Program-made: the position numbers and the translations under genes
Shown: positions 2,637 to 26,636 of the stretch, piece after piece
How positions within the stretch are numbered: position 1 is the first letter of the stretch
Layout of the letters: every line of letters starts with the position of its first letter
The notes under the pieces: model-generated
What the model was told of the DNA's origin: nothing
The model's database searches: none
The model's input: only the letters and a program-made list of their open reading frames with translations
NCBI RefSeq assembly: GCF_016132445.1
Contig: NZ_CP046056.1
Span: 2,349,501 to 2,413,500, forward strand
Length of the DNA: 64,000 nt
Direction of reading: 5' to 3'
Origin: Venatoribacter cucullus
Lineage (GTDB): Bacteria > Pseudomonadota > Gammaproteobacteria > Pseudomonadales > Oceanobacteraceae

Positions 2637-2845
2637 TTCTTTGTAGCCTGCGGCCACTGGCTTAGCCGTCATCTTATGCCAGCCCTTTAGGCTGGTTTGC
2701 TGCCTTTGGCCACTGGGCAGGCCGCCGTTGGCGGCCTGATGCGGGGCTCCGCCCCCGCGCCCCGGATGTGGGGATCTTATCCCCACGCCCCTGCTTTTGC
2801 GCTGTATAGCACGTATATCCTCATTCACCGTCATTGCCGACGGTC

Positions 2846-2898
2846 ACGGATCGTAAGGCGCGTCGTGCGCCACGATCCTCGCCCGGTCCATCCGGGCG
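2846..2898 (+). repeat. Double-hairpin module, copy 1
   Basis: About 53 bp. It is an imperfect long hairpin with arms GGATCGT/ACGATCC around GGCGC/GCGCC, followed directly by a second hairpin GCCCGG-TCCAT-CCGGGC. The same two-hairpin unit recurs inverted at 3142-3195 inside the same element and once more at 26406-26458. Compensating changes keep both stems (for example GGCGC..GCGCC becomes GGCAC..GTGCC), which suggests the fold matters. Confidence 0.8.
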
Positions 2899-2992
2899 GG
2901 CCTGTCAATAACGCTTCATTTCGGCGTGCTATAGGCGCGATTCAAACCGCAGCGGCAATGCCGGCATGGTTTTATTGAGCGCGCTCTGCGCG

Positions 2993-3044
2993 AAAACCAA
3001 AAACCAAAAACCAAAAACCAAAAACCAAAAACCAAAAACCAAAA
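2993..3044. repeat. Seven-copy tandem heptamer CCAAAAA
   Basis: The dinucleotide CC occurs at 2997, 3004, 3011, 3018, 3025, 3032 and 3039, each followed by five A (four after the last), so a 7-bp unit is repeated seven times. Copy B of the composite element has only a short A/T-rich remnant at the same place (about 26305-26335). The array looks like a slippage-prone locus inside the element. Confidence 0.9.
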
Positions 3045-3141
3045 GAAAATATCCGGCCACAGGCCGCAAAAATCTATTCAGGTTACTGCGGTTTTCCCGG
3101 CCCATTCGTTCCAGCCCGCAGATAAAAAAATACGGTAGCCA

Positions 3142-3195
3142 TGCCCGGATGATTCCGGGCAAGGATCGTGGCACAGGACGTGCCTTACGATCCGT
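3142..3195 (-). repeat. Double-hairpin module, copy 2 (inverted)
   Basis: Reverse complement of the unit at 2846-2898 with several substitutions. Both stems are kept: GCCCGGA..TCCGGGC, then GGATCGTGGCAC..GTGCCTTACGATCC. It lies in the part of element A that otherwise has no counterpart in element B. Confidence 0.75.
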
Positions 3196-3346
3196 TGGCT
3201 TAACCGGATTTTTTTAGCCAGGATCAGCTGGAACGCGGGCCAGAGGGGTTCGCAAGGGGATACCTCCCCTTGCAATACCAGCGGCCGAAGGCCGCAATAG
3301 CTGCCACGCAGTGGCAGCCAACCAGCCCGGCAGGGCTGGCAAACAA

Positions 3347-5506
3347 CTAGGGTGTATCCGCCGATACGCGAAACCGCCCCACCAGCTGCTGCAAACTCTG
3401 GCTGGCATGCCGCACACTGCCGGCACTGGCCTGCAACTCCTCCATCACCATTGCCAGCTCGGCTCCTGCCGCTTCGACCTGACGGATTGAGACGCCGTAG
3501 AAATGGCTGTGCTCACTGAGATGATTCATCAGGTCAAACATCCGCTGCACTGCCTGCTGCAACCCGGCATTATCGCTGCCGGCCGCTTCTGCCGCGCGCA
3601 GGCGCTGGTCCACTTCCTGCACGCCGGTTTCCATAAACTCGACGGCAGCCCGGGTTTCGTCCTGCAGGCCGGCCACGGTTTGCTGAATATCCGATGCGGC
3701 CTCGGCGGTGCGGCTGGCCAGTGACCGCACTTCACCGGCCACCACGGCAAAACCACGCCCGGCGTCACCGGCCCGGGCCGCTTCAATGGCGGCATTCAGG
3801 GCCAGCAGGTTGGTCTGACTGGTGATGTCAGTAATCATCGCGACGATGTCACCAATGGCGCGCATGCGGCTGTCGAGGCTCTGTACCCGTTGCGCGGTGG
3901 TGTCGACCACGGTACGGATACTGAGCGTACCGGCCTGCGCTTCTTCAAAGCGCTGGCGGGCATCCTGCACCACCTCATCCATGGCGTTTTTCATAACCTG
4001 AGCGGTGGCCGAGGCTTCCTGAATATCGCTCAGCTGTTGCTCCACCAGCCCCAGCATTTTGCCGATCACGGTACGGACTTCCTCACTGGTGTGATGTGCC
4101 TGTCCGGTACGGCTGAGCATTTGTTCGTTGCGCTCCTGCACCAGCGCGGTGGTGGTTTTTACCTGCCCCATAATGCCATCGAGGCTGTCGAGAAAACTGT
4201 TGATCCAGCGCCCCATGCCACCGGTTTCATCGCGCGCCAGTTGGCCGGTATCCAGTCGTTGCTGCAGGTTGCCCTCACCTTCCGCCAGAGTACGGATCAG
4301 CCGGGTGGTGGTGCGCAACCGCTGTGCCACCAGACGCGGCCCGGTACTGGCAAACACCCAGACCGAAGCCAGCAACAGCAGGCTGTTGAGGGCCAGCGTC
4401 GGCCATAAACCAAAGGGCGAAAAATGTTGCAGCAAGGTGGTGGTTCCCAGCAACCCCAGCACCGTCAGCAGATAGGTTTTGATCAGGCCAACACTGACCG
4501 AGCGGCGCCGGTACACCTCTTCCAGATCGCCTTCACACATCATGCCCCAGCGGTCGGGCGAGCCAGGCAGCTGAAAGGTCACCCCTTTGCCGATCACCGG
4601 AATATGGCGGTAATCGGAATACCCGGGGTAGCGCACAAACAGGTTGCTGCCATGGGCAATGGTTTCGCGTACGCCCGGGTGCAGCTCGCCGGTGGCCGGG
4701 TCGGTAAAGCGCAGCTCCAGTTCGGTATGCTCTTTTACCCGCACCGTGCCCCAGCGCGTGTGTATGCCCTGTTTCAGGTTTTCACCATGACTGAAGGTGC
4801 TGTCTTCAAAGCGCGAACGCGACAGCGCCGTGCCCGGCTGAATGTCGGGGTCAAAGGACGACTGCACCATAAACAAATAGTTATCGCCGGATTCCGGATA
4901 CACATGGCCGGCTTCGCGCTGAATCAGATCACCAATCACATCATTGGGAATGCGCGCACACAGGCACAGCTGGCGGCCATCGTCACTTTGCCAGGGCTGA
5001 TAAAACATCAGCGTTACGGCATCGTGAAAAGAGGACACCGATGGCCCCAGCTGCAGGGTCACCGGGTCGCGGTACGGGCCATGCAAAAAGGGCTGCTGCA
5101 AGCCACGCGCTAAGGCCCGCTGCAGCGTCTCAGTGGCGTGGGTTTTGCCGCTGCGGCCGCTTGCGGTAGACACCAGCACGGAACCCCGGGCGTCCAGTAC
5201 CAGTAATTCAGAACTGTCGCGCAGCTGCTGGTGGCGGCGCTGCAGCAATTCCGGCCACTGGCGGGCATCGGCACCACTGAGCTGACGGCTGAGTTCCTGC
5301 AGTTGCTGCCAGTGGTTATCCGTCCATTGCTGCAGCAAACGCACCCGGGTAGCGGCGACACCGGTAAAAATCTCTTCCACCACCGGATACAGATTGCGGT
5401 TCAGCCAGCACGACCAGCCCAGCCGCCACTTATTATTCGGGCCAGCCCAGGGCAGCCAGTGCTGCTCAGCGGCAGACAGATTCATCGGGCGGTACAACTC
5501 AGACAT
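3347..5506 (-). CDS. Methyl-accepting chemotaxis protein with membrane hairpin in the middle
   Basis: A 719-residue chemoreceptor. The ATG at 5506 (MSELYRP) is preferred because GGAGAG lies 6 nt upstream; a GTG at 5527 lacks such a site. The first 335 residues show no signal peptide or membrane helix and include a PAS/Cache-like strand pattern near 100-115. Two hydrophobic helices (about 337-359 and 367-388) come next, then a HAMP-like linker and a long coiled-coil signalling domain. The hairpin tip has [15 protein letters not shown] and [12 protein letters not shown], the region that contacts CheA/CheW. There is no N-terminal membrane anchor, so the sensory part should be cytoplasmic. The ligand is unknown. 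Confidence 0.85.
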
Positions 5507-5709
5507 AGCACTCTCCGCAGCAATCACAACGGCCTGCTGACAGAAAAGTCAGGCCACGTGAAGAGTCTAATACAAAGGCATGAGCTGCCGGAGAACCCCG
5601 GCCGACAGAGTCGACAATAACCGGGCAGGCATAAGCACATAACCAAAAAACAGTATTAAGAGGGTGCCGAATCCTTACAATAACGGCCTTTTACTCAGGG
5701 AGTAGCCTT

Positions 5710-7056
5710 ATGCCCCGACCCTCTGCCCCGGCCTTGCTGCCGATGTTGTTATTTCTGGCCACCTTTATTGGCAGTGGCCTGTACTTTCAGGCCGCTGGTG
5801 CTGACTTTGCCTTTTATAAAATCCCGGCGCCGGTCGCGATTTTGCCGGCCATCGTGCTGGCTTTGCTGCTGGCGCGCGGCAGTATTAATGCGCGGGTTGA
5901 AACCTTTGTGCGCGGCTGCGCCGAACCCACCCTGGTGACCATGCTGCTGATCTTTCTGCTGGCCGGTGGTTTTGCCAGCACCGCCAAGGCCATCGGTGGC
6001 GTCGATGCCACGGTGAATCTGGGCCTGAGCCTGATTCCGCCGGCGCTGATTCTGCCCGGCCTGTTTGTGATGACGGCCTTTATGGCCACCGCCATGGGCA
6101 CGTCCATGGGCACCATCGCCGCCGTAACCCCCATTGCCGCCGGGCTGGCCGGCGCCACCGATCTGCCGCTGCTGCTGACGGTCGGCACGGTGATGGGCGG
6201 GGCGATGTTCGGCGATAATTTATCGGTAATTTCCGACACCACCATTGCCGCGACCCGCACCCAGGGCTGCTCGATGATGGATAAGTTCCGGCTTAATTTC
6301 CGGCTGGCCCTGCCTGCCGCCCTGCTGACGTTACTGTGGCTGTACTGGCAAGGCAGCAGCACCCACATTGAAGCTCCGGGTGATAGCAACCTGTGGCTGA
6401 TTCTGCCGTATTTAACCGTTCTGATTCTGGCCCTGAGCGGGCTGAATGTGATTGTGGTACTGCTGTGCGGCATTCTTCTGGCCGGCGTCAGCGGGCTGTG
6501 GCTGCAGCCTGAGTATTCGGTGGCGCGCTGGGCGCAGGATATTTATGCCGGTTACGACAGCATGCAGGAAATTTTTATGCTGTCGCTGCTGATCGGCGGG
6601 CTGGCGGCCATGATGCAGGCCGGTGGCGGGCTGGCCTGGCTAGCCGGACAGATTGACCGCCTCAGCCGCAGCACGAATAACCCACAAGCACACCGGCGCG
6701 CCGGCGAGTTCAGCATCAGCCTGGCGGTGGCGCTGTCCAACCTCTGCACCGCCAACAATACCGTGGCGATTCTGCTCAGTGGCGCACTGGCCAAAGACAT
6801 TGCCGGTCGTTACGGCGTTGCCCCCAGCCGCAGTGCCAGCCTGATGGACTCGGTGTCTTGTGTGGTGCAGGGCATTCTGCCCTACGGTGCGCAGATGCTG
6901 CTGGCAGCCTCAATTGCCGGGCTGTCACCGCTGCAACTGGTGGGCACGGTGGTGTACTGCTGGTTACTGGGATTAATGGTGGTGGTATCGGTGCTGTTTA
7001 ACTGGCCCAAAACGCCAGCCACCCGTACGGCTACCGCCACCCCGCCAGTGGTTTAA
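5710..7056 (+). CDS. NhaC-family Na+/H+ antiporter
   Basis: A 448-residue polytopic membrane protein with roughly 11-12 hydrophobic segments. Segments rich in Gly/Ala/Thr and Asp (for example VMGGAMFGDNLSVISDTT near 160-180, and a later SNLCTANNTVAILLSG stretch) are typical of the NhaC antiporters in the ion-transporter superfamily. It probably exchanges Na+ for H+ across the inner membrane, which fits a marine or brackish habitat (inference). The start is supported by GGGAG about 8 nt upstream. Its 3' end overlaps the convergent nif3-like gene by 4 bp, so there is no room for a separate terminator. Confidence 0.85.
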   Translation: MPRPSAPALLPMLLFLATFIGSGLYFQAAGADFAFYKIPAPVAILPAIVLALLLARGSINARVETFVRGCAEPTLVTMLLIFLLAGGFASTAKAIGGVDATVNLGLSLIPPALILPGLFVMTAFMATAMGTSMGTIAAVTPIAAGLAGATDLPLLLTVGTVMGGAMFGDNLSVISDTTIAATRTQGCSMMDKFRLNFRLALPAALLTLLWLYWQGSSTHIEAPGDSNLWLILPYLTVLILALSGLNVIVVLLCGILLAGVSGLWLQPEYSVARWAQDIYAGYDSMQEIFMLSLLIGGLAAMMQAGGGLAWLAGQIDRLSRSTNNPQAHRRAGEFSISLAVALSNLCTANNTVAILLSGALAKDIAGRYGVAPSRSASLMDSVSCVVQGILPYGAQMLLAASIAGLSPLQLVGTVVYCWLLGLMVVVSVLFNWPKTPATRTATATPPVV

Positions 7057-7811
7057 ACCGGGTTATCGACGTCGATAAATTCCACCAGCAGGTCAAATTC
7101 CTGCTGCAGATATTCTCCCAGCGCCTTCACGCCATAGCGCTCGGTGGCGTGATGGCCGGCGCTGAAAAAATGGGTGCCGGTTTCACGCGCTAAATGCACC
7201 GCCGGCTCGTTGATTTCGCCGGTTAAAAAGGCATCGACCCCGGCGTTCACCGCCGCCTGCAAATACCCCTGAGCGGCACCGGTACACCAGCCGATGGTTT
7301 CGATTACATCGGTTTCTTCACCAATGTGCAGCGGCTGGCGCTGCAGCGCCTCGCCCAGCAACTCACTGAATTCGCGCGCCGTCATCGGCTGCGGCAAACG
7401 GCCGATTAAACCGGGCATGGTTGAGTCTTCTTCACTTAACGGCCCATCAATCTGCAGATTCAGCACATCGGCCAGCTGTACGTTATTGCCATACACCGGA
7501 TGACTGTCGAGGGGCAGATGGTAGGCGATCAGGTTAATGTCGTTGGCCAGCAAGGCTTTCAGACGTTCGCGTTTAATACCGGTAACGCGCTCGTCTTCGC
7601 CTTTCCAGAAATAACCATGGTGTACCAGAATGGTGTCAGCCCCCCGTTCAATGGCGGCATCCACCAGCGCCTGACTGGCGGTAACGCCGGTCACGATATG
7701 GCCAATATGTTCATGCCCTTCCACCTGCAGACCATTGGGGCAATAGTCGCGGAACTTAGCGGTTTGCAGAATGGTATCCAGATGCTTCAGCAGGGTGCGG
7801 CGCTCGATCAT
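7053..7811 (-). CDS. Nif3/YbgI-family dinuclear metal-centre protein
   Basis: A 252-residue protein of the Nif3-like family, once labelled GTP cyclohydrolase I type 2. Members form ring-shaped hexamers with a two-metal site. The expected ligands are visible: His64-His65 in LVHHG, Asp102 in HLPLDSH, and His220-His221/Glu224 in AGHHATE. The precise cellular role of this family is not settled. It is transcribed divergently from the AlgW-like protease, and its stop lies inside the end of the nhaC-like gene. Confidence 0.9.
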   Translation of the reverse strand: MIERRTLLKHLDTILQTAKFRDYCPNGLQVEGHEHIGHIVTGVTASQALVDAAIERGADTILVHHGYFWKGEDERVTGIKRERLKALLANDINLIAYHLPLDSHPVYGNNVQLADVLNLQIDGPLSEEDSTMPGLIGRLPQPMTAREFSELLGEALQRQPLHIGEETDVIETIGWCTGAAQGYLQAAVNAGVDAFLTGEINEPAVHLARETGTHFFSAGHHATERYGVKALGEYLQQEFDLLVEFIDVDNPV

Positions 7812-7847
7812 AGTGGTGTTCTCTGTGGGGTCGGTTAGCGGCGGTTC

Positions 7848-7856
7848 TGGTACTAT
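7848..7856 (+). promoter_or_regulatory. Putative extended -10 promoter of the algW-like gene
   Basis: TGG followed by TACTAT fits the TGn-extended -10 pattern. Transcription would start near 7863, just before the protease gene. No good -35 box is seen, which is tolerated by extended -10 promoters. Prediction only. Confidence 0.35.
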
Positions 7857-7876
7857 GCCGTTTTATTGGGCAGTTT

Positions 7877-9070
7877 ATGGTGATGGGGGTTTTCCGGCAA
7901 ATGCGTCCGCTGAGTTCGTTACTGCAGTCTTTGGTTATTCCGGCCCTGATCGGCTGCATTGCTGCGCTGGCTATTTTGCTGTGGGCACCGCACTGGGTGA
8001 CAGCACCACAGCCGCTGACGGATCCGGTTAGCGGGGAATCCATCACCTCACCTGCCACCATGGCGGCAGCGATGGCCGGCCCGGTCAGCTATGCCGATGC
8101 GGTGGAAAAAGCCGCGCCAGCGGTGGTAAATATTTACACCCGCACCCTGGTGCGCCGGGAGCGGCATCCGATTTTTGATGACCCGTTATTCCAGCGCTTT
8201 TTCGGCCGCAATCCGGAACCCGATCAACGCATTCAGTCCAGCCTCGGCTCCGGCGTGATTATGGCCGCCGAGGGTTATGTGCTGACCAATAACCATGTGA
8301 TTCACGGCGCCGATGAAATTGTGGTGGCGCTGCGCGATGGCCGCGAAGCCAACGCCCGTGTGGTAGGCACCGACCCGGAATCCGACCTGGCCTTATTGCA
8401 GATTCAGCTGGACGATTTACCAGTGATTCAGCTGGCTAGTGGTGATCTGCGCATTGGCGATGTGGTGCTGGCCATCGGCAACCCCTTTGGCGTCGGCCAG
8501 ACCGTGACGCTGGGCATTGTATCCGCCACCGGCCGCAACCAACTGGGCCTGAATACTTACGAAGATTACATTCAGACCGACGCTGCCATTAACCCCGGTA
8601 ATTCCGGCGGCGCGTTAATTAATGCCATGGGTGAACTGGTGGGGATTAATACCGCGATTTTCTCCAAATCCGGTGGCAGCCAGGGCATTGGTTTTGCCAT
8701 TCCGGCGGCGCTGGCCAACCGCACAATGCAGGATATTGCCGAACATGGCAGCGCCATTCGCGGCTGGCTGGGACTGGAAGTACAGGAGTCTACCCCGGCC
8801 CTGTTGGAAGCACTGGATTTACCACGCGCCCTGACCGGCCTGATCGTAACCGGTATTTATCCGGATGGCCCGGCCGACAAAGCCGGCCTGAATATCGGCG
8901 ATATTATTGTGCGGATTAACCAACAAAGTGCCGACAGCGCCCGCCGCGCCATGAATCAGATTGCCGCAGTACGCCCGGGCGATAATGTTCAGATTGAATT
9001 TTTACACGCTGGCCAGCAGCGTCAGGTCAGCGCCGTAGCCGGCCAGCGTAAAACCGTGGCGGCGGATTAA
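7877..9070 (+). CDS. algW: DegS/AlgW-type periplasmic serine protease
   Basis: A 397-residue membrane-anchored HtrA protease. One N-terminal hydrophobic helix (about 15-37) is followed by a trypsin-like domain with triad His140 (TNNHV), Asp170 (ESDLALL) and Ser243 (GNSGGAL), and by a single PDZ domain (about 285-390). One PDZ and a retained anchor fit DegS/AlgW rather than two-PDZ DegP. In Pseudomonas AlgW starts the cleavage of the anti-sigma factor MucA in envelope stress, and it lies next to hisC-hisD-hisG-murA as here. The start is uncertain: ATGs at 7883 and 7901 are also possible, the last having GGGGG 12 nt upstream. Confidence 0.87.
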   Translation: MVMGVFRQMRPLSSLLQSLVIPALIGCIAALAILLWAPHWVTAPQPLTDPVSGESITSPATMAAAMAGPVSYADAVEKAAPAVVNIYTRTLVRRERHPIFDDPLFQRFFGRNPEPDQRIQSSLGSGVIMAAEGYVLTNNHVIHGADEIVVALRDGREANARVVGTDPESDLALLQIQLDDLPVIQLASGDLRIGDVVLAIGNPFGVGQTVTLGIVSATGRNQLGLNTYEDYIQTDAAINPGNSGGALINAMGELVGINTAIFSKSGGSQGIGFAIPAALANRTMQDIAEHGSAIRGWLGLEVQESTPALLEALDLPRALTGLIVTGIYPDGPADKAGLNIGDIIVRINQQSADSARRAMNQIAAVRPGDNVQIEFLHAGQQRQVSAVAGQRKTVAAD

Positions 9071-9113
9071 ATCTGGCTGACACGATCGGTGATGATCGTT
9101 CAGATGCTGCTCG

Positions 9114-9200
9114 GAAGATTTCTGCAGCAACCTTGTGCGCCATGGAAGGCGCACATGAGCCTCCATGGAAGGATTCACGGCGAGTTGCGAAGAAATCTTC
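9114..9200. repeat. Structured intergenic stem-loop element
   Basis: Outer arms GAAGATTTCT(gca)GCAAC and GTTGCGAAGAAATCTTC can pair with one small irregularity. Inside is a perfect 8-bp hairpin TGTGCGCC-ATGGAA-GGCGCACA (9134-9154), and CCATGGAAGG occurs a second time around 9163. The element lies between the convergent algW and hisC genes and has no good reading frame. I recall similar CCATGGA-rich intergenic repeats in marine Gammaproteobacteria, but this was not checked. Confidence 0.55.
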
Positions 9201-9230
9201 TGGGCAAGCAATATTGTTCAGAACCATATA

Positions 9231-9261
9231 AAAAACGGGCCAGTCATTGGCCCGTTTTTTT
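9231..9261. terminator. Bidirectional intrinsic terminator between algW and hisC
   Basis: Stem AACGGGCCA / TGGCCCGTT with a 5-nt loop, an A-run on the left and T7 on the right. It can terminate both the plus-strand protease gene and the minus-strand mla-murA-his run that ends at 9280. Confidence 0.85.
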
Positions 9262-9279
9262 ATCGCCTGCGCTGTGAAT

Positions 9280-10344
9280 TTACAGCGCCTTCAATGCATC
9301 CAGCAGAATCTGGTTCTGCTCGTCGGTGCCGATGGTAATGCGCAGAAACTGGGCAATGCGTGGCGTTTTAAAATGCCGCACGATAATGCCCTGCTCCCGT
9401 AATGCCTGCGCCAGTTGCGCGGCATCTTTATCGGCATGACGGGCAAAGACAAAATTTGCCGCTGATGGCAGCACGTCAAAACCCAGCTGTTCCAAACCCG
9501 CCACCACCGCCTCACGGCTGTTAATAACACGAGCACAGGTATCGTTAAAATACTCGCGGTCATCGAAGGCCGCAGCCGCACCGGCAATGGCCATGCGATC
9601 GAGCGGATAGGAGTTAAAGCTGTTTTTAATACGCTCTAACGCTTCGATTAAATCCGGGTGCCCTACCGCAATGCCGACGCGCAAACCGGCCAGTGAACGG
9701 GATTTCGACAACGTCTGCGTGACCAGTAAATTCGGGTATTGATTCACCAGCGCTATGGCCGACTCACCACCAAAATCCACATAAGCTTCGTCCACCAGCA
9801 CCACAGTATCGGTGTTTTGCTTAAGCAGTTGTTCAACCGCGGCTAATGGCAACAGGCAGCCGGTGGGCGCATTGGGGTTGGGGAAAATAATGCCGCCGTT
9901 TTCACCGGCATTAGCACGGAAATAATCGGCGATATTAATCTGGAAATTTTCATCCAGCGGAATCGGTTTCGGTTCAATGCCGTACAGGCCGCAATACACC
10001 GGATAAAAGCTGTAGGTAATATCCGGAAACAACAGCGGCTTGCCGTGCTGGAACAAAGCATGGAAGGCATGCGCCAGCACTTCGTCAGAACCGTTACCGA
10101 CAAACACCTGATTGGCCTCTACACCGTAATACCGGGCCACCGCTTGTTTCAGGCGGTCGCCATTCGGGTCGGGGTACAAACGCAGATCGTCGTTAACCTC
10201 GGCCTGCATCGCCGCAATGGCTTGGGGCGATGGGCCATAGGGATTTTCGTTGGTATTCAGCTTCACCAGCCGCGTCATTTTCGGCTGTTCACCCGGCACA
10301 TAGGGCACCAGGTCTTTAACGAACGGGCTCCAGAACTGGCTCAT
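9280..10344 (-). CDS. hisC: Histidinol-phosphate aminotransferase
   Basis: A 354-residue PLP-dependent fold-type I aminotransferase that converts imidazole-acetol phosphate and glutamate to histidinol phosphate. The PLP lysine is Lys214 in [10 protein letters not shown], and VGNGSDE and [10 protein letters not shown] are the usual cofactor-contact motifs. The N-terminal [13 protein letters not shown] segment is typical of HisC. It is the last gene of the mla-ibaG-murA-hisG-hisD-hisC run, starting 5 bp after hisD, and is followed by a strong terminator. Confidence 0.95.
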
Positions 10345-10349
10345 GGCAA

Positions 10350-11654: not shown

Positions 11655-11672
11655 ACATCACTCCTGCAGACA

Positions 11673-12323: not shown

Positions 12324-12350
12324 GCGCTGCCGATCCTCTTCAATAATGTC

Positions 12351-13861
<1,511 letters not shown>

Positions 13862-13908
13862 AACTGTTTCACCATTGCTAGCCGGAAAAGCGCGACATCA
13901 TAGCGGAA

Positions 13909-14238: not shown

Positions 14239-14250
14239 AGGCTTCTCCCG

Positions 14251-14709: not shown

Positions 14710-14711
14710 AA

Positions 14712-16306: not shown

Positions 16307-16506
16307 GCCGACACTCCCGGTCGCCGTCAAAACGTTGCCGGTAGCATAACGGATGCCCGATACAGAACCAAACGACAGCCGCCGCTGGTTGCGGCCACTA
16401 GTAAAACGCTGCGTTGCACCGGAACGAGACAATTCTTCTGTACATTGCGTGCAGCCATCCCTCCGGTACAATGCCGGCTGATCTTTTTCTGTGGATACCC
16501 ATCCTC

Positions 16507-18440: not shown

Positions 18441-19012
18441 TGCGGAAGCAATACGTTGTCCTGGCACTGGCGCTGCTGGCCGGCATTGGCCTGCTGAACC
18501 TCGACCGGGTAAAAGAAATGCCGGTAACAGCCACCCCGGTGGTCAGTGGAAATGAAGAGGCCGACTATTACGGTGACCAACTGTATCAGCGCCAGTACAA
18601 CGCGGCCGGTCAGCTGGAGCAGAGCTTCCGCGCCGCCACCCTGCAGCATTTTCCGCTGTCTGCCGTGTCGCACTTTACCCGGCCGCGCATTATCACCACG
18701 GCTGAAGACGGCAAAATGTGGCAGATTGATGCCCTGACCGGCGAAGCACTGGACCAGGACGAGCGTCTGACCCTGCGTGAGCAGGTGGAAATCCGCTCCA
18801 TCAACACGCCCGCTGACGACCCGATTACCATCCATACCGACTGGCTGAACTACCATGCCGGGCAGCAGACCGCCACCACCGATGCACCGGTGGTGATCCG
18901 TCATCCGGCCACGCTGACCGAAGCCACCGGCATGACCCTCAATGTCGCTGACCGCACCCTGCAACTTCATCATCAGGTAAACACCCGTTATGTGCCGCAA
19001 GCATCTGAATAA
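18440..19012 (+). CDS. lptC: LPS export protein LptC
   Basis: A 190-residue protein with one N-terminal membrane helix (about 5-20) and a periplasmic beta-jellyroll. LptC joins the LptB2FG ABC transporter to the LptA bridge that carries LPS across the periplasm. The family is weakly conserved; the call uses the N-terminal anchor, the QLEQSFRAATLQHFP segment and its place between kdsD and lptA. Its start is fused to the kdsD stop (TGATG), and its end overlaps lptA by 23 bp. Confidence 0.88.
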   Translation: MRKQYVVLALALLAGIGLLNLDRVKEMPVTATPVVSGNEEADYYGDQLYQRQYNAAGQLEQSFRAATLQHFPLSAVSHFTRPRIITTAEDGKMWQIDALTGEALDQDERLTLREQVEIRSINTPADDPITIHTDWLNYHAGQQTATTDAPVVIRHPATLTEATGMTLNVADRTLQLHHQVNTRYVPQASE

Positions 19013-19565
19013 ACTCTGTGCCGCTGCCCTGCTGCTGCCGGCGCTGGCGTCCGCACTGCCGGAAGACTTCAACCAGGAAGTGGTGATTGTTTCCGACCGC
19101 GCCGAAATTGACCGTCAGGCCGGAGTCGTGATCTATCAGGGCGATGTCCTCCTGACGCAGGGCACCCTGCGTATTGAGTCTGACCGCCTGACAGTGGTCA
19201 GCACCGAAGGCCGGATGGAAAAAGCCACCGCCGAAGGCCAGCCGGCCCGTTATCAGCAGCAGATCAACCCCGGCTCACCGCTGACCCATGCGCACGCGCA
19301 ACGCATCGACTATCTGGCCGCCAATCAGGAAGCCATCCTGATCGGCAATGCCGTACTGCGGCAGGACAGCAACGAAATTACCGGTGAGCGTATCCGCTAC
19401 GATATGAACACCGAAGTCATCTCCGCTGGCCAGCCAGCCGACGCTGGGGAAAAACCGGCCCGGATCAAAGTGATCTTCCAGCCCAAAACCGCTGAGCCGG
19501 CCACAGCGCCCGCTCCGGCAGTAACCGTTCCGGATGCACCGGTTCCGGCGGAGACCCAGCCATGA
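18990..19565 (+). CDS. lptA: LPS periplasmic bridge protein LptA/LptH
   Basis: A 191-residue periplasmic protein with a signal peptide (about 1-22, ending ALASA-LPED). The OstA/LptA jellyroll region (about 30-150) has [16 protein letters not shown] and the GERIRYD pattern. It polymerises into the bridge that moves LPS to LptD/E. An Ala/Pro-rich tail (about 168-191) is probably disordered. The ATG lies inside the lptC end; its stop overlaps the lptB start by 4 bp. Confidence 0.9.
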
Positions 19566-20287
19566 AAACCCTGCACGCCGAATCGCTGGCAAAAAGCTAC
19601 GGCAACCGCCAGATCGTTAAAGACGTCTCCATGTCGGTGAACAGCGGCCAGATTGTCGGCCTGCTCGGCCCCAATGGTGCCGGCAAAACCACCTGTTTCT
19701 ATATGATTGTGAATCTGGTGCAGGCGGATAACGGCCGTGTGCGCATCGACGATGAAGACATTAGCCACCTGCCCATGCACGGACGAGCCAAAAAAGGCAT
19801 TGGTTACCTGCCGCAGGAAGCCTCTATTTTCCGCAAGCTGAGCGTGGCCGATAACATTATGGCCATTCTGGAAACCCGCAAAGACCTCGATAAAGCCGGT
19901 AAACAGGCCAAGCTGGAAAGCCTGCTGGATGAGTTTCATATTCAGCATATCCGTGACAGCAAAGGCATGGCGCTGTCCGGTGGCGAACGGCGGCGGGTGG
20001 AAATTGCCCGCGCGCTGGCGGCCGAACCCTCCTTTATTCTGCTCGATGAGCCTTTCGCCGGGGTTGACCCCATCTCCGTTGCCGACATCATGGATATTAT
20101 CCGCCAGCTGAAAGCGCGCGGCATCGGCGTACTGATTACTGACCACAATGTGCGGGAAACACTGGCCATCTGTGAAAAAGCCTATATCGTCGGCGGCGGC
20201 CATATTATTGCCGAAGGTACCGCTGAGCAGGTATTGGCCAACGAACAGGTGCGTAAACAGTATCTCGGAGAAGATTTCCGCCTGTGA
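19562..20287 (+). CDS. lptB: LPS export ABC transporter ATPase LptB
   Basis: A 241-residue ABC ATPase. Walker [10 protein letters not shown] (about 36-44), signature LSGGERRR and Walker [13 protein letters not shown] are followed by the H-loop TDHNVRETL. LptB drives extraction of LPS from the inner membrane with LptF/G. The [10 protein letters not shown] stretch after the Q-loop is typical of LptB. It is the last gene of the kdsD-lpt run and is followed by a promoter-like sequence for rpoN. Confidence 0.95.
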
Positions 20288-20315
20288 GCCAGTAACTGAC
20301 GTGGTTTGTCAAGGA

Positions 20316-20343
20316 TAGCCAGACCGGGCCCTTGGCGTATAAT
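20316..20343 (+). promoter_or_regulatory. Putative sigma-70 promoter of rpoN
   Basis: A perfect -10 TATAAT (20338-20343) lies 16 bp after a -35-like TAGCCA (20316-20321, 4 of 6 matches). Transcription would start near 20350, about 32 nt before the rpoN ATG, so sigma-54 and the PTS-Ntr genes could be expressed apart from the lpt genes. Confidence 0.55.
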
Positions 20344-20381
20344 GCAACATTAATGCCGTTTTGAGTGAATACTGAAGCCCT

Positions 20382-21875
20382 ATGAAAGCCTCCCTGCAGT
20401 TAAAGATGGGTCAGCAACTCACGATGACCCCGCAATTACAGCAAGCCATCCGCCTGCTGCAATTGTCGACCCTCGATCTGCAACAGGAAATTCAGGAAGC
20501 GCTTGATTCCAACCCCATGCTGGAAGTGGAAGAAAACGAACACGACGGCCTCAACGATTTATCCTTGCCGGCGACCGCCGACATCAGCACCGAAGTCAGC
20601 AGCCACGACCATGACGATGGCGCTGACACCCCGGAACTGGACGAACAATGGTCACAGGAACAGATTCCGGATGACCTGCCGGTCGACAGCCAGTGGGAAG
20701 ATACCTACCAGACCACCGCCGGCGTGGCCTCCGGCAACAGCGGCGCCATCGACGACGACTTTGACTACGACGCCCGTCACGCCAGCACCGACAGCCTGCA
20801 GGACCACCTGCTGTGGCAGCTGAACCTGACCCCGATGTCCGATACCGACCGCGATATCGCCCTGATGCTGATCGACGGCGTCGATGATGACGGCTACCTG
20901 CACACCACGGTTGAGGATGTGCTGGAAAGCATGGACCCGGAGCTGAACGTCGAAGAAGACGAAGTGATGGCCGTGCTGCACCGCCTGCAACAATTTGACC
21001 CGGCCGGGGTATTTGGCCGCGACCTGCGCGAATGCCTGCTGCTGCAACTGCACCAGATGCCGGCCGACACCCCCTGGCTGGCGGAAACCCGGCTGGTGAT
21101 CAGCGAACATATTGAGCTGCTGGGCAACCGCGACTACCCGACCCTGATGCGCAAAACCAAACTGCGCGAAGATGATCTGAAAGCCGTGCTGCGGTTAATC
21201 AAAGAGCTGAACCCCAAGCCCGGCTCCGGGATCAGTTCCGAACAGGCCGAATACGTTATTCCCGATGTGATCGTGCGTAATATCCGCGACGAATGGCGGG
21301 TGGAACTGAACCCCGACATTGCCCCCAAGCTGCGCGTCAACGCCGATTACGCCGCCCTTATCCGCCGCTCCGACAACAGCACCGATAACGCCTTTCTGCG
21401 CGACAACCTGCAGGAAGCGCGCTGGTTTATCAAAAGCCTGCAAAGCCGCAACGAAACCCTGCTGAAAGTGGCGACCAAAATTGTCGAATACCAGATCGAC
21501 TTTTTCGAGCAGGGTGAAGAAGCCATGAAACCGCTGGTACTGCACGATATTGCCGAAGCGGTGGGCATGCACGAATCAACCATTTCGCGGGTCACCACGC
21601 AAAAATACATGCACACCCCGCGCGGTATTTTCGAGCTGAAATACTTTTTCTCCAGCCACGTCAGTACCGACAGCGGTGGCGAATGTTCCTCCACCGCCAT
21701 CCGTGCCATGATCAAAAAACTGATTGCCGATGAAAATGCCCGCAAACCATTAAGTGACAGCAAACTGGCTGCCTTGCTGGCCGACAAGGGGATTCAGGTT
21801 GCACGCCGTACCGTTGCCAAGTACCGTGAAGCCATGCTTATTCCGCCGTCGAACGAACGCAAACAACTGATTTAA
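20382..21875 (+). CDS. rpoN: RNA polymerase sigma-54 factor
   Basis: A 497-residue sigma-54. The Gln/Leu-rich region I ([20 protein letters not shown]), which contacts bacterial enhancer-binding activators, is at the start. An acidic region II (about 48-130) follows, then the core-binding domain, a helix-turn-helix ([10 protein letters not shown]) and the RpoN box [10 protein letters not shown] near the end, which reads the -24 promoter element. It leads hpf-ptsN-rapZ-NPr, the conserved sigma-54 neighbourhood. Confidence 0.96.
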
Positions 21876-21917
21876 AACTGTTTTAACTTACCAGCATAAA
21901 AACCAAGGAGTCTGGAT

Positions 21918-22220
21918 ATGAAAATCAACCTCAGCGGCCACCACATCGAAATTACCGAAGCGCTGCAAAGCTATGTGGAAGAAAAAATGTCACGCCTGAG
22001 CCGTCATTTCGACAACATCACCAACGGCCAGGTGACCCTGACCGTAGTGAAAGAACGCATGACTGCGGAAGCCACCATCCACGTTGCCGGTGCCGACCTG
22101 CACGCCAGCGCTGAACATGACGATATGTACGCCGCCATCGACCAGATGACCGACAAACTCGACCGCCAGGTGTTAAAACACAAAGAAAAACTGGTGGACC
22201 GTCAGCACGGTCACAACTGA
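21918..22220 (+). CDS. hpf: Ribosome hibernation promoting factor, short form
   Basis: A 100-residue protein of the HPF/YfiA family (MKINLSGHHIEITEALQSYV; conserved KL..HFD segment). It binds the 30S subunit and helps to form inactive 100S ribosomes in stationary phase. It has no C-terminal dimerisation domain, so it is the short type, usual in Gammaproteobacteria. AAGGAG lies about 9 nt upstream. It is 42 bp after rpoN and 3 bp before ptsN. Confidence 0.94.
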   Translation: MKINLSGHHIEITEALQSYVEEKMSRLSRHFDNITNGQVTLTVVKERMTAEATIHVAGADLHASAEHDDMYAAIDQMTDKLDRQVLKHKEKLVDRQHGHN

Positions 22221-22223
22221 GCC

Positions 22224-22685
22224 ATGGCCATCAGCATCGGGGATATTCTGACCCCGGAACGTACGTTATTTGACGCCCCGGTTTCCAGTAAGAAAAAGTT
22301 ACTGGAATATCTGGCCGGTTTTGTCGCCGACCTGACACCGGACAGTTCCGCCGACGATATTTACGAGCGCTTACTGGGCCGTGAACGGCTGGGCAGCACC
22401 GGCATCGGGGAGGGCATTGCCATTCCCCATTGCCGCCTGCCACAGTGTCAGCATCCTTTTGGCGTACTGCTGCGCCTGAGCGAAGCCATTGACTATGACG
22501 CCGTTGACCGGCGGCCGGTCGACCTGGTGTTTGCCCTGTTCGTACCGGAAGAAGCCAACGACGAGCACCTGCAGGTGCTGGCCATGCTGGCGCGTAATTT
22601 CACCGAGCCAGACTACCGGGAAGCGTTGCGTAACGCACCGGATGCCGGCCGCCTGTACCAACGGGCACTGCACACGGAAGCCTGA
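22224..22685 (+). CDS. ptsN: Nitrogen PTS EIIA component
   Basis: A 153-residue EIIA-Ntr protein of the fructose/mannitol IIA fold. The phospho-accepting histidine is in GIAIPHCRLP (about residue 70). It takes phosphate from NPr and regulates potassium transport and nitrogen or stress responses by protein contact. It lies with rpoN, rapZ and the NPr gene; the EI-Ntr gene (ptsP) is not in this window. Confidence 0.94.
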   Translation: MAISIGDILTPERTLFDAPVSSKKKLLEYLAGFVADLTPDSSADDIYERLLGRERLGSTGIGEGIAIPHCRLPQCQHPFGVLLRLSEAIDYDAVDRRPVDLVFALFVPEEANDEHLQVLAMLARNFTEPDYREALRNAPDAGRLYQRALHTEA

Positions 22686-22703
22686 GCAGGCATAAGGAGC
22701 AAT

Positions 22704-23564
22704 ATGCGTCTGGTCATTATCAGCGGCCGTTCCGGCTCAGGAAAATCCAGCGCCCTGCACGTGTTGGAAGACCTCGGTTTCTATTGCATTGACAACCTGC
22801 CGGTGGCCTTGCTGCCGGCACTGGTGCATCAGACGGAAGGGGAAGAAAAACTGTCACGGGTGGCGGTAAGCATTGATGCCCGCAACCTGCCCCATGCTTT
22901 CGACCGCATCGACGATGTCCTGCACGAATTGCCCAGTGAGGAATACCAGCTCGATGTGGTGTATCTGGATGCCAGCGAAGAAGTGCTGCTGCAGCGCTTC
23001 AGCGCCACCCGGCGCAAACACCCGCTCACCGGCCCGGACGTATCTCTGGCCGAAGCCATCCGGCAGGAAAAACAGCTGCTGCACCCGATTGCCGACCTGG
23101 CCGACCTGACACTGGATACCACCAGCATGTCGGTACACGAGCTGCGCAGCCAGATTAAACTGCGGGTCGCGGGAAAATCCGGCAGCGACATTGCCATTCT
23201 GTTTGAGTCTTTTGGTTTCAAACACGGCGTCCCGATTGATGCCGATTATGTATTCGATGTGCGCAACCTGCCCAACCCCTACTGGGACCCGGCGTTACGC
23301 CGCTTCACCGGCCGCGACCAGGAAATCATCGGTTTTCTGCAGAATGAACCCCAGGTGCTGGCCATGGAAAGTGACATCACCTCGTTTATTACCCGCTGGC
23401 TGCCCAGTTTTATTGAAGCCAACCGCAGTTACCTGACCATCGCCATCGGCTGCACCGGCGGCCAGCATCGCTCGGTCTATCTGGCCGAGCAGCTGGGCGC
23501 GCTGTTCAGCCAGCAATATCCACAGGTGCAGGTTCGCCACCGTGAACTGAACGGCGTGCACTGA
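22704..23564 (+). CDS. rapZ: RNase adapter protein RapZ
   Basis: A 286-residue P-loop protein. Walker A GRSGSGKS is at 8-15, and a Walker B-like DVVYLDAS occurs near 92. The C-terminal half, with IGCTGGQHRSVYL, is the ligand- and RNA-binding part. In E. coli RapZ directs the GlmZ small RNA to RNase E and thereby sets amino-sugar synthesis. GGAG precedes the ATG. Confidence 0.94.
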   Translation: MRLVIISGRSGSGKSSALHVLEDLGFYCIDNLPVALLPALVHQTEGEEKLSRVAVSIDARNLPHAFDRIDDVLHELPSEEYQLDVVYLDASEEVLLQRFSATRRKHPLTGPDVSLAEAIRQEKQLLHPIADLADLTLDTTSMSVHELRSQIKLRVAGKSGSDIAILFESFGFKHGVPIDADYVFDVRNLPNPYWDPALRRFTGRDQEIIGFLQNEPQVLAMESDITSFITRWLPSFIEANRSYLTIAIGCTGGQHRSVYLAEQLGALFSQQYPQVQVRHRELNGVH

Positions 23565-23571
23565 GGAAGCC

Positions 23572-23844
23572 ATGATGATTCGCACGGAACTGCTCATTAT
23601 CAACAAGCGTGGCCTGCACGCCCGTGCCGCCGCCAAACTGGCCGGCACCGCCAGCCAGTTTGCCAGCAGCATCCGTTTAGGCAGCAGCAGCCAGATGGCC
23701 GATGGCAAAAACATCATGTCGGTGATGATGCTGGCGGCCAGTCAGGGCACCACCTTGCAGGTGGAAATCAGCGGTGATGACGCCGATGCAGCCCTCGCCG
23801 CCCTGACCGATCTGTTTGCCCGCCGTTTCGACGAAGACGAATAA
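23572..23844 (+). CDS. ptsO: Phosphocarrier protein NPr
   Basis: A 90-residue HPr-family protein. The active histidine is His16 in NKRGLHARAAAKL, and the later SQGTTLQVEISGDDA segment is the conserved second half. It passes phosphate from EI-Ntr to PtsN. It begins 7 bp after rapZ and closes the rpoN gene run. Confidence 0.94.
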   Translation: MMIRTELLIINKRGLHARAAAKLAGTASQFASSIRLGSSSQMADGKNIMSVMMLAASQGTTLQVEISGDDADAALAALTDLFARRFDEDE

Positions 23845-23994
23845 CCCTCTGATGAACGCCAGTAGGGCGACAAAGTTGGCCTGATGCCATAAAAAACAAC
23901 CCACTGAACCAGATTCTTCAGGTTCTTTCGTGGTGCCGGACGGCCGTTACCGCTAAAATCCGAACCACTGCCCCTTAATTTCCGGACCTGAGCA

Positions 23995-25350
23995 ATGGCG
24001 CAACACAGCGAAAAAGCCAAAGCAAAACTGCACAGTCTGAACGCCGCCCTCGAAAGCGGCGCGCTGACTCAGGTCAAACGCATCCTGAATTCCGGTCTGG
24101 CCCCGGTTGACGTTGCTCACCTGATCGAATCATCGCCCCCGAAAGCCCGTAAATTGCTGTGGGAGCTGGTCGACAAAGATCTCGAAGGTGAGGTAATCCA
24201 GCACCTGAGCGAAGAGCTGCAAAGCCACTTCCTCAGTGATATGAGCGCCGAAGAGGTTGCCGACCTCACCGCCGACATGGACACCGACGACGTCGCCGAC
24301 ATGCTGCAACAGCTGCCGGAGCGCGTGACCCAGGAAATTCTGGAGTCCATGGATGATCAGGACCGCGCGCGTCTGGAAGCCATTATGGGCTATCCGGAAG
24401 ACAGCGCCGGCGGTCTGATGAACACCGACACCATTACGGTGCGCCCGGATATCACCCTGGATGTTGTTTTACGTTATCTGCGCCGGCACAAAACCCTGCC
24501 GCCGATGACCGACAACCTGGCCGTGGTTAACCGCCAGAATGAATTCATTGGCATTCTGCCGGTCAGCAAACTGCTGGTCAGCGATCCGCAGCAAACCGTG
24601 CGCGAAGTGATGACCACGGACTCCCGGGTTATTCAGGCCACCCAGCACGAAAGTGAGGTTGCCAAGGTCTTTGAACGTCACGATCTGGTGTCCGCCCCGG
24701 TGATTGATGCCAGCGGCAAGCTGGTCGGCCGTATCACCATCGATGACGTGGTCGACGTTATCCGTGATGAAGGCGACCATTCCCTGCTCAGCATGGCCGG
24801 TCTGGATGACGAAGAAGATACCTTCGCGCCAGCGCTGAAATCCAGCCGCCGCCGGCTGGTCTGGCTGTTTATCAACCTGCTGACGGCCTTTACCGCCGCC
24901 ACCGTGATTGGCCTGTTCAAAGATACGATTGAACAGATTGTGGCGCTGGCCGTACTGATGCCCATTGTTGCCAGTATGGGCGGTATTGCCGGCAGCCAGG
25001 TACTGACGCTGGTTATCCGTGGTCAGGCGCTCGGCCATATCAGCAACGCCAATATCAACTGGCTGCTGCGCCGGGAAGTATTGATTGCCGGCATCAACGG
25101 CACCTTACTGGCACTGGTCATCTCACTGATCACCTTTTTATGGTTTGGTGACCCCTATATTTCACTGGTGATTGCCCTGGCCATTGTGATCAACATTACC
25201 TTTGCTATGCTGGCCGGCGCTGTGCTGCCGATTCTGATGAAAGCCAAGGGCATTGACCCGGCCCTGGCAGGCAGCGTGGCGCTGACCACCATCAGTGATG
25301 TTGTCGGCTTTATGTCCTTCCTGGGATTAGCCACCCTTATTGTCCTCTGA
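23995..25350 (+). CDS. mgtE: Magnesium transporter MgtE
   Basis: A 451-residue Mg2+ channel/transporter. The MgtE N-terminal helical domain (about 25-130) is followed by two CBS domains (about 135-255) and five membrane helices (about 285-450) with GGIAGSQVLTLVIRG and SVALTTISDVVGF. Cytosolic Mg2+ bound by the N and CBS domains closes the pore in the studied homologue. No obvious Mg2+ riboswitch was seen in the 150-bp leader. Confidence 0.94.
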   Translation: MAQHSEKAKAKLHSLNAALESGALTQVKRILNSGLAPVDVAHLIESSPPKARKLLWELVDKDLEGEVIQHLSEELQSHFLSDMSAEEVADLTADMDTDDVADMLQQLPERVTQEILESMDDQDRARLEAIMGYPEDSAGGLMNTDTITVRPDITLDVVLRYLRRHKTLPPMTDNLAVVNRQNEFIGILPVSKLLVSDPQQTVREVMTTDSRVIQATQHESEVAKVFERHDLVSAPVIDASGKLVGRITIDDVVDVIRDEGDHSLLSMAGLDDEEDTFAPALKSSRRRLVWLFINLLTAFTAATVIGLFKDTIEQIVALAVLMPIVASMGGIAGSQVLTLVIRGQALGHISNANINWLLRREVLIAGINGTLLALVISLITFLWFGDPYISLVIALAIVINITFAMLAGAVLPILMKAKGIDPALAGSVALTTISDVVGFMSFLGLATLIVL

Positions 25351-25364
25351 CTGAATTCAACCTT

Positions 25365-25877
25365 ATGAAACATACCGACTACCAGGATGATGATGAAGAT
25401 TTCATCAGCAAATCCGAACTGAAACGTGAAGCGCACCGCCATCAGCAGCTGGGCAAAAAACTGGCTGACCTGAATCCGAAGAAATGGCGCGACCTGCCGA
25501 TCAGCGAAAACCTCTACAACGCCCTGGTGGAAAATAACCGCCTGAGCCAGAACGAAGCCAAACGCCGGCACCTGCAATTCATTGGCAAAATCATGCGCGA
25601 TGAAGACGTGGACGCCATTCTGGCCGGACTGGAACTGCTGGATCCGTCCAGCGAAGCCTACGGTCGCCGCATCAAGCAACAAGAGATGTGGCGCAACCGG
25701 CTGGTCAGTGATGACGCTGGCCTGAATGCCTTTATTGAAGAGTTTCCGGCGGTTGACCGCCAGCAGCTGCGCAATCTGGTGCGCAATGCGCAGAAAGAAA
25801 TGAATTCAGAGCCGCCCAAGCCCGGCACCAACTATAAGAAACTGTTTCAGTTTATTCGTGAGCAGATGGAAGGCTGA
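25365..25877 (+). CDS. darP: Ribosome-associated protein YjgA/DarP
   Basis: A 170-residue acidic/basic helical protein of the YjgA (DUF615) family, which has been linked to late assembly of the 50S subunit. EDFISKSELKREAHRHQQLG and the WR..L/LRNLVRNA pattern match the family. It lies 14 bp after mgtE. A small GAAGGC-TGAC-GCCTTC hairpin spans its stop codon, just before composite element B. Confidence 0.9.
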   Translation: MKHTDYQDDDEDFISKSELKREAHRHQQLGKKLADLNPKKWRDLPISENLYNALVENNRLSQNEAKRRHLQFIGKIMRDEDVDAILAGLELLDPSSEAYGRRIKQQEMWRNRLVSDDAGLNAFIEEFPAVDRQQLRNLVRNAQKEMNSEPPKPGTNYKKLFQFIREQMEG

Positions 25878-25896
25878 CGCCTTCTGCCTTCATGGT

Positions 25897-25961
25897 GGTT
25901 GCCAGCCCTGCCGGGCTGGTTTAGCCGCCACTGCGTGGCAGCTTATGCGGGGCTCCGCCCC
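25897..25961 (+). repeat. Left terminal inverted repeat of element B
   Basis: 65 bp holding three short hairpins in order: GCCAGCCC-tgcc-GGGCTGG, GCCACTGCGTGGC and GGGGCTCCGCCCC. The reverse complement of 26548-26628 shows the same order. Confidence 0.7.
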
Positions 25962-26405
25962 TGGCCGTCACTGCGTGACGGCTTTTTGCGGCCTTCGGCC
26001 GCTGGTATTGCAAGGGGAGGTATCCCCTTGCCAACCCCTCTGGCCCGCGTTCCAGCTGGTTCCTCGTTTACCAAAGCCAATGACGCATACGCGGCCAAGG
26101 GGGAGACTTCAGGCATCCTGCCTTTCGCCCTGCGGGCCAGCCTTCGGCTGTTCAATTTTGTTCCAACAAAATTGTCCATGCCCCTACCCGCTCGTTTGGA
26201 GTCATCCAAACGATGCTATTGGCTTTGCCAAACTTCGGGCTGGAACGAATGGGCCGGGAAAAACCGTAGAAATTTGAGAGAATTTTGGCGGCCTGCGGCC
26301 GGATATTTTTTGTTTTGAGCGAAGCGCACAAAAACATTGACGGCGTAGCCGCTACGGTTTGAATCGCGCCTATAGCACGCCGAAATGAACCGTCGTTGAC
26401 AGGCC

Positions 26406-26458
26406 CGCCCGGATGGACCGGGCGAGGATCGTGGCGCACGACGCGCCTTACGATCCGT
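26406..26458 (-). repeat. Double-hairpin module, copy 3
   Basis: Nearly identical, in reverse complement, to 2846-2898 of element A: hairpin GCCCGG-ATGGA-CCGGGC, then the long GGATCGT..ACGATCC hairpin. It is the best conserved part of the two elements. Confidence 0.8.
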
Positions 26459-26547
26459 GGCCGTCGGCAATGACGGTGAATGAGGAAATACGTGCTATAC
26501 AGCGCAAAGCTGGAGCGCGAGGATAAGTTCCTCGCAATCGGGGCGCG

Positions 26548-26628
26548 GGGGCGGAGCCCCGCATCAGCTGCCACGCAGTGGCAGCTAAATCAGCCCAACG
26601 GGCTGACCAGCCTGCAGGGCTGGCAACC
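26548..26628 (-). repeat. Right terminal inverted repeat of element B
   Basis: 81 bp, the inverted counterpart of 25897-25961 with one added GCCCAACGGGC hairpin. Confidence 0.7.
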
Positions 26629-26636
26629 AGGCGCCG

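Follow-up and report, generated by a model that had tools for sequence, protein, structure and literature searches.

RNA recognition by CsrA centres on GGA in a hairpin loop (CAGGAYG, CAUGGAUG), and neisserial intergenic mosaic elements (NIME/RS arrays) consist of mosaic modules between inverted repeats. The R0, R2, R178 and R200 repeats of Pseudomonas fluorescens are described as strain- or species-specific hairpin families with a tail-to-tail bias (PMC2718517), and GTAG-tagged, RAYT-associated REP/BIME repeats as palindromes that often form opposite pairs downstream of genes (PMC3733652). The TwoAYGGAY RNA (RF01731) is among the RNAs catalogued in Weinberg et al. 2010 (PMC2864571), and CsrA binding has been proposed for it from a motif scan (PMC4333381).

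Here we describe a composite intergenic repeat of Venatoribacter cucullus that resembles each of these in part. It shares with TwoAYGGAY a branched stem with two neighbouring hairpins and GGA in loops, but its copies in this genome score below the family cut-off, mostly carry GGA in one of the two loops (42 of 49 units) and set their units as outward inverted pairs in a 600–800-bp mosaic repeat that ends in hairpin arrays and occurs many times in each genome. Like NIME it is a mosaic intergenic repeat made from modules, although its modules are folded units and the dRS3 inverted repeat has no match in the window, even with one mismatch. It is palindromic, often in opposite pairs and downstream of genes, as are REP/BIME, but its units are 60–150 nt long with two hairpins, a structure other than the GTAG-tagged 20–40-bp palindromes of that class. 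Tail-to-tail bias, specific families and hairpins liken it to the P. fluorescens repeats as described. GGA-bearing hairpin loops recall the CsrA-titrating sRNAs of the CsrB/RsmZ type, from which it differs in being many dispersed copies.

Two related composite elements in convergent gaps

The window, a stretch of 64,000 nucleotides (contig NZ_CP046056.1, positions 2,349,501 to 2,413,500), contains copies A and B (Table 1). Aligned with reverse-complemented B, A shows four collinear blocks of 268, 97, 77 and 23 bp at 84–100% identity, in agreement with a sequence-only reading that had seen two related elements in opposite orientation between convergent genes. That reading also called the middle segments unrelated, which holds for their sequences, as these do not match, and fails for their structure, as both are interchangeable sequence versions of one common fold, a branched stem bearing two hairpins. 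Its description of a multi-hairpin element is upheld by folding: the predicted structure of A and B exceeds chance, with z = −8.3 (A) and −24.5 (B) for whole elements against 20 shuffles each, and −5.0 to −8.6 for single units against 200 shuffles. In unit II of B, a nested insertion at about 26102–26174 splits the GGGGCATGGA hairpin. No open reading frame of at least 100 aa lies inside A, and the three mechanical ones overlapping B (139–140 aa) have no Pfam hit up to E = 1.

Table 1. Coordinates of copies A and B, their parts and their neighbouring genes in the window.
Feature	Position	Strand	Remarks
OmpA/MotB-like gene, left neighbour of A	1917–2636	+	stop at 2636; Pfam
Element copy A	2678–3344	+	occupies convergent gap 2637–3346 (710 bp)
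Left hairpin array of A	2679–2786		hairpins 2679–2695, 2718–2738, 2741–2758, 2768–2786 (hairpin list)
Unit I of A	2804–2937	sense −	fold z −4.96
Unit I of A, hairpin 1	2881–2897	−	GCCCGG-ATGGA-CCGGGC
Unit I of A, hairpin 2	2848–2878	−	loop without GGA
Central linker of A	2938–3096		7-bp tandem array (CCAAAAA) near 2990–3044, from sequence
Unit II of A	3097–3244	sense +	fold z −8.39
Unit II of A, hairpin 1	3143–3160	+	loop without GGA
Unit II of A, hairpin 2	3163–3193	+	loop AGGAC
Right hairpin array of A	3252–3339		hairpin list
Methyl-accepting chemotaxis protein (MCP) gene, right neighbour of A	3347–5527	−	stop at 3347; Pfam
darP (DarP), left neighbour of B	25365–25877	+	stop at 25877; Pfam
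Element copy B	25897–26628	− (opposite to A)	occupies convergent gap 25878–26636 (759 bp)
Unit II of B (other sequence version)	26040–26258	−	hairpin 1 26193–26212; fold z −7.18
Unit I of B	26369–26504	sense + in window	hairpin 1 26407–26423, hairpin 2 26426–26456; fold z −7.18
Nitrilase-like carbon-nitrogen hydrolase gene, right neighbour of B	26637–27434	−	stop at 26637; Pfam

Copies across the genome and among relatives

In BLAST searches of the 2.83-Mb genome, A had 109 matches and B had 144, which we grouped by hand, leaving out three short ones, into about 31 copies or fragments spread over 30 gaps. The three left out are 40-bp matches to the middle of B that adjoin 407-aa genes, through which a link to a transposase was considered; these genes encode EF-Tu, and the places were therefore dropped. 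Thirteen of the 30 gaps are convergent (expected about 11–14%; p 1e-4 to 5e-6), 17 are tandem and none is divergent, so that the element recurs and is placed non-randomly with respect to gene orientation, the two points on which the sequence-only reading was to stand or fall. The units point outward in all 20 gaps that hold two; of the 60 GGA loops that these elements carry in perfect hairpins, 54 likewise face outward, and the linker between units is frequently a variable tandem repeat. In the tandem gaps of three related genomes, 21 units lie in the sense direction of the genes and 19 in the antisense direction, a split that speaks against the units acting within the mRNA of the gene itself. 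GTAG-type REP-like repeats, by a pattern of our own definition, occur separately beside some copies (6 of 309 loci). A plasmid collection queried with A gave no match, nor did a 20-base core pattern in collections of genome and viral contigs from which the window's own genome is possibly excluded, and a literature search found no paper on an intergenic repeat in Thalassolituus.

In seven of eight congeners, the darP–nitrilase gap orthologous to that of B is only 9–53 bp long and lacks the element; judged by this comparison, B is therefore an insertion. By eye, no target duplication could be made out at the ends of B in comparison with relatives, whose gap sequence has diverged too far. Sister genomes differ in the presence of an element between dnaK and dnaJ, and between dnaJ and dapB the element is reversed and carries other arms. 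We considered that arms are copied from the target and rejected this for dnaK–dnaJ, because the sister genome's gap holds no such arms (by eye, at that locus only). Sequence versions are species-specific, and the units examined in a relative from another genus of the same family differ in their 20–30-bp outer stems. In the manner of a MITE, the element is multi-copy, has no ORF and has inverted ends, with an empty site seen at B only. The earlier suggestion of a mosaic, non-autonomous element thus proves right, given the number of copies, the exchange of modules and the lack of B at the orthologous position in seven of eight relatives. We are confident that the element is a dispersed, non-autonomous repeat of mosaic make-up, with divergent TwoAYGGAY-like units as its basis.

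Relation of the units to the TwoAYGGAY family

Both folds and alignment recover the closing stem and two adjacent hairpins of RF01731. At its curated cut-off (43 bits), Rfam gave no match over the window, and A and B have no RF01731 match at E up to 1. Nine matches were obtained in the V. cucullus genome, of which the best three, at 39.8, 38.0 and 36.0 bits (E from 8e-5 to 6e-4), correspond to copies of the element lying in the same strand and register as the model, none of them reaching the cut-off, and the remaining six (E 0.12 or worse) lie outside element copies; low-threshold scans matched 3 of 14 loci of this genome. RF01731 exceeds the cut-off in four of eight congeners, at up to 55 bits, and some of these matches sit in elements of the A/B plan. 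Across the order, 67 of 391 genomes searched have a match, with 0 to 45 per genome within one family.

Read by hand from the fold listing, 48 of 49 units present GGA in a hairpin loop: 42 in one loop, five of these broken by a nested insertion, and six, of the GGGAT/AGGAT version, in both, so that paired AYGGAY-like loops as in RF01731 are confined to a minority. When the units of this genome are aligned by sequence, the loops of the two types do not fall in register. Hairpin loops with GGA, the mark of a CsrA-binding RNA, are present, but among all distinct hairpins they are no more frequent in element gaps (19 of 136) than in other gaps (15 of 88).

Explanations for the element and a possible link to CsrA

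We lean slightly towards a non-autonomous mosaic repeat of TwoAYGGAY-like units that possibly titrates CsrA. Its body comprises two such units, each a long stem with two side-by-side hairpins, inverted outward around a linker, with the ends capped by arrays of short hairpins. The copies, the empty site at B and the lack of divergent gaps among the 30 show insertion into DNA downstream of genes, where the element may be tolerated because promoters are spared, through selection or target choice; units exchange between two sequence versions of one fold. On read-through from a flanking gene, a unit that is sense in the transcript would fold and expose GGA loops of the kind bound by CsrA/RsmA, and the copies together could thereby titrate CsrA. 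One csrA gene was found in this genome, and a literature search on CsrA and dispersed repeats, judged by titles and the opening lines of abstracts, brought up nothing on such a sponge; we regard this titration step as tentative and rather doubtful.

The repeat may instead be purely selfish, a MITE- or REP-like palindrome whose hairpins are seen as single-stranded DNA by a transposase encoded elsewhere, with the RNA structure having no role. The differences between sister genomes at dnaK–dnaJ and dnaJ–dapB, the species-specific versions and the even split of sense and antisense units all fit this, as does placement at 3′ ends, which is usual among bacterial palindromic repeats (PMC2718517, PMC3733652). 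Against it, mismatches in the relatives' unit arms on the GGA strand are G-U in 90 cases and A-C in 17 (78 units, 7 groups), with 27 to 33 for the comparison of GG/TT and AA/CC, an excess that RNA folding would leave, although the copies lack independence and the covariance model behind the matches is itself biased towards G-U. In a looser alignment the G-U:A-C ratio is 51:16 in one genome and reversed in two (14:22, 11:15). We give the selfish reading appreciable weight, short of an even chance.

Selection for a two-way transcription terminator or insulator between convergent genes, as the sequence-only reading had also entertained, would account for the enrichment of convergent gaps, and under a strict rule (perfect stem of at least 6, then a T-run) 16 sites in 26 of the 30 gaps read inward and none outward; a looser scan of B finds 5 terminator-like sites vs 1.2 in shuffles. 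Yet strict sites stand on just 9 of 38 gene-end sides of these 26 gaps (and on 6 of 14 gene-start-facing sides) and on neither side of A, for which the looser scan gives 1 vs 1.6 in shuffles, and most element gaps are tandem. The two-way-terminator idea is weak; it lacks support as a general role, and we consider it very improbable. The consistently outward units, together with close opposite-strand RF01731 pairs that are outward in 15 of 15 cases among the matches listed (counted by eye), could also reflect a bidirectional small-RNA gene, in which transcription from the linker in both directions would yield two sRNAs that bind CsrA. However, neither A nor B contains a recognisable sigma-70-like promoter, we found no strict outward terminator in the 26 gaps, and the linker is often a variable tandem repeat; such a gene seems improbable.

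An RNA family that was catalogued in 2010 with no role assigned proves to occur in many scattered copies in some of the genomes searched across the order, and its relatives here are outward inverted pairs in mosaic elements gained and lost between species. More speculatively, and in our judgement unlikely, TwoAYGGAY may be no single-locus regulatory RNA but the core of an order-wide class of spreading intergenic repeats with putative CsrA-binding hairpin pairs, which lineages would amplify, invert and rebuild into a distributed, mobile CsrA sponge whose size varies by species. The many natural copies and their presence or absence between sister genomes offer a testable setting for the proposed CsrA binding, and suggest that the copy number of a repeat might tune a global regulator.

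A dispersed, gene-free mosaic repeat

The genome of Venatoribacter cucullus is a single contig of 2.83 Mb, far smaller than those of eight congeners (G001–G008, 3.9–4.4 Mb). BLAST returned 109 matches in it with element copy A and 144 with copy B, which we grouped by hand into 34 places; with three short ones beside EF-Tu genes left out, element copies occupy 31 places in 30 gaps. EF-Tu itself has three genes here, with identical Pfam scores (L092 and L093; L-numbers denote individual loci). Aligned with A, the reverse complement of B matches in four collinear blocks of 84–100% identity, and the sequence in between is unrelated. The sequence-only reading had suggested a mosaic non-autonomous element as one possibility and proposed a search for further copies, which bears it out: the element is a real, dispersed, gene-free mosaic repeat.

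Element copies and associated features, in window coordinates unless stated
Feature	Coordinates	Remark
Window	2349501-2413500 (contig)	
Copy A	2678-3344	convergent gap
Copy B	25897-26628	convergent gap, opposite strand to A
Nested hairpin insertion in B	26102-26174	

Gene calls came from a home-made codon-model gene caller, and none of the 31 places exceeds the permitted overlap of 60 bp with a called gene. Siting in convergent gaps, as originally described, holds as an excess (13 of 30 gaps; P ranges from 1e-4 when gaps are counted to 5e-6 when non-coding length is used) but not as a rule, as the other 17 gaps are tandem, including one of 2,964 bp that holds places E08 and E09 and may contain uncalled genes; none is divergent (P from 8e-3 to 5e-6). 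The background consisted of 13 stretches of 20 kb together with the window, from which both element gaps had been removed; 40 of its gaps were convergent, 198 tandem and 41 divergent. Because PMC2718517 and PMC3733652 describe the same placement bias for palindromic repeats in Pseudomonas and elsewhere, this bias alone is no evidence of function.

The darP–nitrilase gap that holds B measures 759 bp, compared to 11 bp in G002, G003 and G008, 9 bp in G004, 33 bp in G007, 43 bp in G001 and 53 bp in G006; in G005, a different ORF lies inside and about 1.8 kb separate both matched genes. Comparison with the congener gaps shows that B is an insertion. For the genes left of A, only G004 among the eight congeners has a full-length match.

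Anatomy of the element and its units

A full copy begins and ends with a hairpin array. Between the left and right arrays lie unit I, on the minus strand of the element, and unit II, on its plus strand, separated by a linker that contains short hairpins and frequently a tandem repeat. Each unit carries two side-by-side hairpins on a closing stem and comes in two sequence versions, with hairpin arms GCCCGG/GGATCGT (version one) or CGTTTGG/GGGGCATGGA (version two). A has version one in both units and B has one unit of each version, which is why their middle segments had looked unrelated; the sequences do differ, but the units fold alike.

A fuzzy pattern located 49 units across the 30 gaps (E08 and E09 sharing one gap), with an inverted pair in 20 gaps, outward in all 20, a single unit in 6, three same-strand units in 1 and no unit in 3. 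By reading, GGA occupies both loops in 6 of the 49 units, one loop in 42 and neither in the left unit of E26 alone, and the GGA loops of perfect hairpins in the 20 paired elements face outward 54 times and inward 6 times. In 5 of the 42 single-GGA units, B among them, the loop is broken up by nested insertions that resemble one another and have GGA in hairpins of their own; one interrupts a comparable site in an element of G006 (L063). Of the 30 gaps, 24 contain terminal hairpins of the form 8 + 3 + 8 whose loop is TGC, 38 in all; their arms have six sequences, of which five are interrelated through paired changes. REP-like repeats (GTAGGAGCG...) adjoin V. cucullus element copies at L072, L073, L083 and L084.

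Relation to TwoAYGGAY

When congeners were searched with A, the matches were confined to the end hairpins, around which G002, G003, G006 and G008 hold an element of the same plan and different sequence; one in G003 (L061) is split by a long stretch of inserted DNA that may be an insertion sequence. Among named records, the congener-type element occurs in Thalassolituus alkanivorans, a 'Thalassobium' MAG and a Saccharospirillaceae MAG. Two congener elements match TwoAYGGAY (Rfam RF01731) in inverted order, with scores of 48.0, 47.1 and 46.8 bits above the cut-off of 43 and one of 33.2 below. Nine relatives' loci gave eight matches, three above the cut-off, and V. cucullus loci L086, L072 and L084 gave none in the same scan. 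Across whole genomes, matches with E ≤ 0.001 occur in six of eight congeners, passing the cut-off in G002, G003, G006 and G008, and none was found in V. cucullus. A separate search of V. cucullus, with relaxed filters and an E limit of 10, gave nine matches. The best three (39.8, 38.0 and 36.0 bits; E between 8e-5 and 6e-4) are element copies, each matched on the strand expected, and the other six (E of 0.12 or worse) lie outside element copies; at this limit, 1 of 14 control genomes had a match, below the cut-off. Low-threshold scans of 14 V. cucullus loci recovered the same three copies and no other, with no match in A or B. The element core is related to TwoAYGGAY; as the V. cucullus matches fall below the cut-off and A and B have none, the window copies are best described as divergent relatives and are not filed as members.

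Family-wide, 21 of 44 genomes match, 15 of them above the cut-off, and a single genome reaches 45 matches; order-wide, with at most seven candidates scored per genome, 67 of 391 match (42 above), and none of 14 control genomes matches in either search. Among the matches listed, a count by eye gave at least 15 opposite-strand pairs within 700 bp, all of them outward. In G018, from another genus of the family, 22 units read by eye have similar heads and individually different, well-paired outer stems; the distinct stems span 20–30 bp in each copy (L188–L207). The comparison with its sister genome G013 covers two loci, with genes named by Pfam: the dnaK–dnaJ insertion is missing in G013, and the dnaJ–dapB gap there holds a unit in opposite orientation with other arms. 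In the dnaK–dnaJ–dapB region (L196 and L269), one insertion was gained or lost between sister genomes and another unit is oppositely oriented; the dnaK–dnaJ insertion contains a second twin-hairpin unit of different sequence.

Terminator or RNA

A two-way transcript terminator had been suggested as an alternative. In 26 of the 30 gaps, strict terminator-like hairpins point inward 16 times and never outward, and a looser scan finds five in B (shuffles 1.2) and one in A (shuffles 1.6). Of the 38 sides that face a gene end, just 9 have a strict site, compared to 6 of the 14 that face a gene start; A has none, and we find no evidence for termination as a general role.

For a function as RNA, the evidence divides. 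An alignment of 21 units, in which 15 foreign members were picked by the Rfam model and the first hairpin of V. cucullus units is out of register, has GGA loops kept across genera while stems change. On the GGA strand of unit arms (78 units, seven groups), G-U mismatches outnumber A-C by 90 to 17, compared to 27 GG/TT and 33 AA/CC in the control, which also favours RNA, although copies share ancestry, the model finding the units favours G-U, and in G018 alone the control is skewed in that direction too (13 to 4). On the other side, G-U to A-C ratios from a less strict alignment are 51:16, 14:22 and 11:15 in three genomes, and among 63 units in three genomes those in tandem gaps are 21 sense and 19 antisense (the rest being 19 in convergent gaps, 2 in divergent gaps and 2 overlapping a called gene). 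GGA loops show no excess over all distinct hairpins (19/136 versus 15/88), and no promoter-like site was found in A or B.

PMC2864571 lists TwoAYGGAY as a probable RNA that is not cis-regulatory and gives its sources as human gut samples, gamma-Proteobacteria and Clostridiales, unlike Rfam, which types RF01731 as Cis-reg. CsrA binding is proposed for it from a motif match in a passage of PMC4333381. V. cucullus has one CsrA gene, and titration of CsrA by the GGA loops, tentative and on balance doubtful, is our best guess at what the element may do.
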